Below the pieces are notes generated by a model that saw only the letters and a program-made list of their open reading frames with translations, was not told the DNA's origin and searched no databases. Positions 10,246 to 11,264 of a stretch of DNA of 11,264 bases are shown in pieces (within the stretch, counting starts at the first letter, position 1; every line of letters starts with the position of its first letter). The position numbers were made by a program, and so were the translations under genes. The DNA is from Streptomyces katrae (lineage in GTDB: Bacteria; Actinomycetota; Actinomycetes; Streptomycetales; Streptomycetaceae): positions 1 to 11,264 of the forward strand of contig NZ_JZWV01000651.1 in the NCBI RefSeq assembly GCF_000966975.1, read 5' to 3'.

Positions 10246-10354
10246 TGTTTGCAGCCCTGAGTGAACACGACATCGCTCCCCGCACGGCCGCGGCGCGAGG
10301 CGGTACGGTGGGGCGTGAAGGTTACGGCTACACGGTCAGAGGAGGGAGCCACCG

Positions 10355-10735
10355 ATGATTCTGCTCCGTCGCCTGCTGGGTGACGTGCTGCGTCGGCAGC
10401 GCCAGCGCCAGGGCCGTACTCTGCGCGAAGTCTCCTCGTCCGCCCGAGTTTCGCTCGGCTATCTCTCCGAGGTGGAGCGGGGGCAGAAGGAGGCATCCTC
10501 CGAGCTGCTCTCCGCGATCTGCGACGCGTTGGACGTACGGATGTCCGAGCTGATGCGCGAAGTCAGTGACGAGCTGTCGCTGGCCGAGCTCGCGCAGTCG
10601 GCAGCCGCAAGCGAACCGGTGCCGGCACCGGTGCGCCCGATGCTCAATTCGGTCTCCGTGGCCTCGGTCACGGGCGGACCCGAGCGGGTGACCATCAAGG
10701 CGCCCGTGGAAGCGGTGAACGTCGTAGCCGCTTGA
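10355..10735 (+). CDS. clgR: ClgR, XRE-family transcriptional activator of clp/lon protease genes
   Basis: DNA-binding regulator of 126 aa. A helix-turn-helix of the XRE/Cro type covers about residues 10-66 ([21 protein letters not shown]). The tail is Ala/Ser/Val-rich and ends in VVAA. In Streptomyces and Corynebacterium, ClgR activates clpP/clpC and lon and is itself a Clp substrate; a C-terminal Ala-Ala fits that kind of degron. The start is fixed by a strong ribosome site (AGGAGG 10340-10345, 9 bases before ATG 10355). It lies 109 bases after cinA, where a TACGGT at 10304-10309 could be a -10 box but has no matching -35; it may be read from the rimO operon, from its own promoter, or both. 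The gene position behind pgsA and cinA is the same in Corynebacterium, which supports the name. A disrupted hairpin follows. Confidence 0.9.
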
Positions 10736-10792
10736 GTACCGCGAGCTGGACACGTGGGTGTGGCGGGAGCCCCGGGTGGTGCGTGAAGCACC

Positions 10793-10829
10793 GGCCGGGG
10801 CAGATGTGTATAAGAGACAGGGCCGGGGC
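10793..10829 (+). repeat. 9-base direct repeats (GGCCGGGGC) flanking the adapter
   Basis: GGCCGGGGC occurs at 10793-10801 and again at 10821-10829, immediately on either side of the 19-base mosaic end. Nine bases is the length duplicated by Tn5 transposase, so the repeat is best read as the trace of a tagmentation event and not as native sequence. Confidence 0.85.
10802..10820 (+). other. Nextera/Tn5 mosaic-end adapter sequence (contamination)
   Basis: AGATGTGTATAAGAGACAG is identical over all 19 bases to the Tn5 mosaic end used in Nextera tagmentation libraries. It is AT-rich in a context otherwise well above 70% GC. Translations across it give MCIRDR on the + strand and VSYTHL or LLYTSA on the - strand, strings typical of adapter-derived spurious proteins. 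No transposase or second mosaic end is present, so it is not a Tn5 element. Confidence 0.97.
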
Positions 10830-10943
10830 TCCCTGCCGTTCCGGGCCCTCTCGTGCGGTCGTGCGCCCGGTGTTCTGGGTGCGGGGGCCCGGGGTGTGGG
10901 GGAGGATGGGCGCGACCGGGAACCGGCCCTCTGGGAGGTGGCC

Positions 10944-11264
10944 GTGCGGCTGTTACTCCGCATACCTGTGGCTCTGCCCGTCGTGCTCGCCCTGCCCCTC
11001 GCGCTGGCGCTGGGGGCGCTGTGGTGGTGGGCCGTCCTGAGGCTGGCGGTGGTGCCGGCCCAGGCGGGGCCCGTGGAGGGGGCGATAGCCATGGGCGGCT
11101 GGGGGCTGGGACTGCTGCCCGTGCACTGTGTGCCGGAACCCCTCCGCAGGGCCCGGGGCGGGGATCCGGACGCACCCCCGGACGCGGCCGGGGGCGGCCC
11201 GCCGCAGGCCGGGGACGGTGCTGCGGGTCTGGCGGGGGCTACCAGGGCATCGACACCCCTCCGT
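10944..11264 (+). CDS. Small membrane protein of unknown function, 3'-truncated by the window edge
   Basis: I do not recognise this protein. It starts at GTG 10944 with GGGAGG (10933-10938) 5 bases upstream, and 107 codons are open to the last base. Residues 4-36 form a long hydrophobic stretch rich in Leu/Val/Ala with a WWW cluster, either a membrane helix or an uncleaved signal anchor. A second hydrophobic patch lies at about 45-62. The rest is Gly/Ala/Pro/Asp-rich and probably disordered. Codon 4 is TTA (10953-10955), rare in Streptomyces and dependent on the bldA tRNA, and codon 7 is the rare ATA. A GTG at 10938 is an alternative in-frame start. Because the true end is not visible and the upstream sequence is damaged by the adapter, the call is moderate. 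Confidence 0.5.
   Translation, partial: MRLLLRIPVALPVVLALPLALALGALWWWAVLRLAVVPAQAGPVEGAIAMGGWGLGLLPVHCVPEPLRRARGGDPDAPPDAAGGGPPQAGDGAAGLAGATRASTPLR

Follow-up and report, generated by a model that had tools for sequence, protein, structure and literature searches.

A Nextera mosaic end between two copies of a nine-base sequence in a Streptomyces katrae contig, read as a library and assembly artefact

The window, that is, the whole stretch of DNA analysed here, is the entire contig C72 (11,264 bases) of a Streptomyces katrae assembly that comprises 1873 contigs and 8,047,724 bases in total. On its forward strand, positions 10355-10735 code for a helix-turn-helix regulator (Pfam HTH_3), which is ClgR-like and scores 121.9 bits against the NCBIfam ClgR model, under the cut-off of 170. 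The gene is followed, on the same strand, by a strong hairpin (10762-10837), recognised by folding. The 3' arm of this hairpin is split, as written, by a stretch that includes AGATGTGTATAAGAGACAG, the 19-base mosaic end (ME) of Tn5/Nextera, which is present as an exact match at 10802-10820 on the forward strand. With up to three mismatches allowed, no second match to the ME was found in the window, and none in 200 shuffles. The ME is flanked by two copies of GGCCGGGGC, also read on the forward strand, at 10793-10801 and at 10821-10829. An exact nine-base repeat over a 19-base spacer occurs at only one of 11,227 window positions, the ME site itself; from base composition, the chance of such a repeat is about 2e-5 per position. 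A preliminary description of this DNA had placed an exact ME between identical nine-base copies at 10793-10829, and was correct in all of this.

Four relatives align with the window on both flanks of the site: L057 (S. goshikiensis JCM 4640), L066, L073 and L028. All four carry GGCCGGGGC once, followed directly by TCC, without the ME; the single-copy check covered 11 loci, in which the end of the gene upstream was sought, and seven of these did not fit the pattern. The exact ME is absent from all of the 109 loci of relatives, and among these loci GGCCGGGGC forms an arm of the hairpin in the same four and in L108, as a single copy in each. L106 aligns only to the left of the site and also has one copy. 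In the remaining 103 loci the arm is missing in this exact form, and they are uninformative on the site. We found no second copy of the site in the S. katrae assembly, as searched with contigs shorter than about 3,000 bases reading as N. A version shorter by 28 bases had been expected in close Streptomyces genomes, and this is what the four relatives with an alignment on either flank possess. The true genome should carry one GGCCGGGGC and no ME at the site.

The native stretch forms the hairpin's 3' arm, and in the sequence as written the stem is interrupted by the ME. When the window sequence was folded without the 28 bases, the hairpin was formed by 20 pairs over 62 nt, with an energy of -47.3 kcal/mol; the three relatives that were folded gave -41.9 (L057), -54.6 (L066) and -44.3 kcal/mol (L073). 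Dropping the 28 false bases restores, behind the ClgR-like gene, a hairpin that near relatives have in common. The hairpin is predicted to be a transcription terminator; downstream of it there is no long run of T. The preliminary description had also warned that any gene or terminator called across the site is unreliable. This applies to the hairpin, split by the ME, and to the open reading frames that cross the artefact on the forward (10732-11040 and 10758-11264) and reverse strands (10328-11092, 10328-11263 and 10459-11175), which are partly adapter. Frames over 10802-10820 thus call for caution in annotation, while the regulator gene is untouched.

That the ME is a remnant of adapter, as first supposed, is borne out by its distribution across the assembly. 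The genome holds the exact ME at 24 places and its core (the last 12 bases) at 38. Most of the core copies (33 of 38) lie at contig ends with the insert facing inward, a contig-end copy being one in which the core starts no more than 22 bases from the end and the insert is on the inner side. The remaining five, in C72, C863, C1100, C1552 and C1660, are internal; the copy in C1100 differs at two ME bases. At six contig ends the ME is preceded by remnants of tags, and two different tags are represented, the first by CTCGNGCCATCAG, TCGCGCCATCAG and, with one base changed, CGCCATGAG, and the second by GCCCGCTCAG, GCTCAG and CTCAG. The copy in C72 has no kit tag ahead of the ME, tags being found only at the six other copies. 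The tags suggested the 454 platform, but contig ends also hold bases upstream of the 454 key, provided that the key stands where we place it. The published tags of the Epicentre Nextera kit end in GCCTCCCTCGCGCCATCAG and GCCAGCCCGCTCAG, and identical tags belong to that kit as used with Illumina (PMC3699833); the 454 platform was therefore dropped as unproven.

Because copies of the ME and kit tags recur across the assembly, and because the relatives have one GGCCGGGGC and no ME, we conclude that the 28 bases are spurious as written, and that the ME and the nine-base duplication in C72 are not a genuine genomic feature. We regard it as practically certain that the ME at 10802-10820 and the doubled nine bases are an artefact of the library or of the assembly, ordinary in kind. 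The order of repeat, ME and repeat does look like an insertion with target duplication, and the nine-base duplication is shared with insertion of Tn5/IS50 in vivo. However, a real insertion into the chromosome, as a scar left by a transposon of the Tn5 type or by mutagenesis in the laboratory with an element that carries the ME, is hardly conceivable. The ME in C72 is single and without cargo, where an insertion has a pair of inverted ends that enclose DNA. The site thus differs from a Tn5/IS50 insertion in having no transposon and only one end, which, moreover, is the hyperactive ME and not the wild-type end; the hyperactive ME is reported to have taken the place of the wild-type IS50 ends in vitro (PMC4248319). 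The position of the 33 core copies at contig ends, with kit tags at six, also argues against insertion. Where a single ME lies inside a nine-base repeat, a contig join is the reading to consider first, ahead of the scar of a transposon.

As with Nextera adapter found in public assemblies, the ME is the exact 19-base sequence, is located at contig ends and has tag remnants; the copy in C72 differs in being internal and flanked by a duplicated nine-base site. Exact MEs were present in 25 of 392 sampled Streptomyces genomes, S. katrae included, so that the same check should be useful elsewhere. When the first ME places of each genome were taken, 180 distinct exact places were obtained, of which 170 were within 100 bases of the end of a contig or locus and pointed inward, and nine were internal; the last is the copy in C1552, with 99 bases beyond the ME. 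Among the nine internal places, only the copy in C72 has a perfect nine-base flanking repeat. A scan of viral contigs gave at least 120 stretches. Longer Nextera adapters were seen inside contigs in L152, L153 and L172 (each at 1501) and in L183 (2168-2186), which come from three further Streptomyces assemblies and a viral contig; we take these adapters to be the ME with the tags of newer kits. A long contig of another Streptomyces (G364, contig C1) holds six exact MEs, and in L171, drawn from it, the ME (at 1501) follows sequence of no recognised identity and precedes a GC-rich repeat.

How could the ME have come to lie inside C72? The DNA would have been cut up with a Nextera transposome of the Epicentre generation, and what lay on the right of a Tn5 cut would have been assembled with the ME still attached. 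The left-hand sequence, which ends with the first copy of GGCCGGGGC, would reach nine bases past the cut, into the right-hand sequence, of which the second copy forms the first nine insert bases past the ME and is a probable Tn5 target duplication. The two contig ends would then have had just nine bases in common, masked by the ME, and would have been set one behind the other with no N in between. This differs in part from the preliminary description, in which the assembler joined the fragments through untrimmed adapter. One Tn5 cut yields two fragments whose MEs face each other, and a genuine bridge would read as an inverted ME followed by an ME. Since only the right-hand ME is present in C72, it does not act as a bridge; the most plausible reading is that the right-hand contig kept it, untrimmed, at its left edge. 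Thus, the untrimmed adapter stands but the bridging does not, and end-to-end placement of neighbouring contigs, with the ME still on the right one, is a better fit than an adapter bridge.

Two further observations bear on the end-to-end placement. Seven S. goshikiensis stretches that lie upstream of ME-bearing contig ends were searched for in the S. katrae genome. Three gave strong matches, each at the facing end of the next-numbered contig; for the four without a strong match, the neighbours by number read as N. Contig numbers run in genome order. In addition, a single N stands immediately ahead of the ME in C1552 and in C1660, both of them among the four internal copies outside C72, and a single N is the mark that a scaffolder leaves for a negative gap. 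The join was thus probably made by software rather than present in a chimeric molecule. A physical chimera, with the left and right fragments fused during preparation or amplification of the library, should also leave a single ME between the flanks, but we consider it very improbable, as we see no workable annealing route by which GGCCGGGGC would be fused to the 5' end of the ME, and as the single Ns at the two other junctions indicate a software join.

None of the other four internal copies, in C863, C1100, C1552 and C1660, has a perfect nine-base duplication, which weakens the case for a cut shared by the two flanks in C72. Relative to four relatives, about 31 bases are missing at the junction in C863, and about 9-11 bases are missing at the junction in C1552. 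At C1100, nine of ten flanking bases are alike, and none of the relatives tried aligned across the junction. In eight relatives, 6.4 to 18.6 kb separate the two sides of the copy in C1660 (L300, 1307-1907), and their orientations are opposed, so that C1660 seems to be misjoined at the ME. The ME in C1660 adjoins a repeat present at many places in relatives. Near the region equivalent to the C863 junction, one relative (G012; L315, 1475-1495) matches the ME and the two bases preceding it at 19 of 21 positions, probably by chance.

Do the two copies of GGCCGGGGC represent the two sides of one Tn5 cut? The preliminary description had stated so. The nine-base duplication and the single native copy stand, and we consider it likely, though not certain, that both flanks end at the same Tn5 cut, within the 3' arm of the hairpin. 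The uncertainty arises because short unmerged overlaps are common at the contig ends of this assembly. The neighbour was readable for 19 distinct contig junctions that bear the ME, and an overlap is present at seven of these and absent at 12; 13 of the 33 ME contig ends were left out, as their neighbours read as N (contigs shorter than about 3,000 bases). The seven overlaps are of 9 (C128|C129), 8, 7, 11, 22 (with one mismatch), 23 and 17 bases, the overlap of 11 being over-long for a shared nine-base site. For comparison, 58 ordinary neighbouring pairs were fetched, of which 35 read as N and 23 were readable; two of these bore the ME and were moved to the ME set. Overlaps were found at eight of the 21 ME-free junctions; their lengths ranged from 14 to 40 bases, and three included one mismatch. 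Among 1214 pairs of non-neighbours there was no overlap of seven bases or more.

These overlaps lend substance to a variant of the artefact, in which the nine-base duplication is an ordinary short overlap of contig ends and not the two sides of one cut. Unmerged overlaps at ME-free ends and the spread of lengths at the other ME junctions, from 7 to 23 bases, are as this variant would have it, and we hold it possible but rather unlikely. The overlap is of exactly nine bases both at the C72 site and at C128|C129, and of eight and seven at two more junctions, whereas the shortest ME-free overlap found is not below 14. Overlaps of 7-11 bases make up five of eight at ME junctions, the C72 site included, versus none of eight at ME-free junctions (Fisher p 0.026, unchanged with the C72 site excluded), in a comparison that is small, was devised after the data had been seen and had limits that differed between ME and ME-free junctions (near matches from 15 versus 14 bases, exact overlaps from 5 versus 7). 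This excess favours a shared cut at the C72 site. The situation is akin to that of neighbouring tagmentation fragments in BIGseq, in which two sequences have the exact nine bases of one cut in common; in that work, mapped fragments are joined where they overlap, whereas C72 keeps the adapter and both copies (PMC8460729).

Possibly, the break is not random, in that molecules spanning the very strong hairpin, which would resist amplification, were lost from the library and only those cut by Tn5 within the stem survived, with the ME overlaps close to nine bases arising from single tagmentations. We put this forward as a speculation, and a doubtful one. Compared with 600 random windows of 80 bases, the folding energy at the C72 site ranks in the lowest 0.3%. 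None of the seven other ME junctions with an overlap is extreme (energy fractions of 0.115 to 0.857), and the five of the eight ME-free overlapping junctions that were folded gave 0.287 to 0.988. Drop-out at hairpins was therefore rejected as a general cause; it may apply at C72 but is not a rule. Among the literature matches listed for Nextera adapters in assemblies and for hairpins and assembly gaps, none was on this pattern.

The facing ends of C1840 (L376, last 12 bases) and C1841 (L389, 1-21) both bear ME sequence, and their inserts do not have the bases at the cut in common. G is reported to be favoured just inside the Tn5 cut (PMC8460729); the first base of the 38 inserts is C in 19, G in 17 and A in two, which is little informative at this G+C content. 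Finally, the end of C72 (window 11249-11264) overlaps the start of C73 (L408, 1-16) by 16 bases, unmerged and free of adapter.
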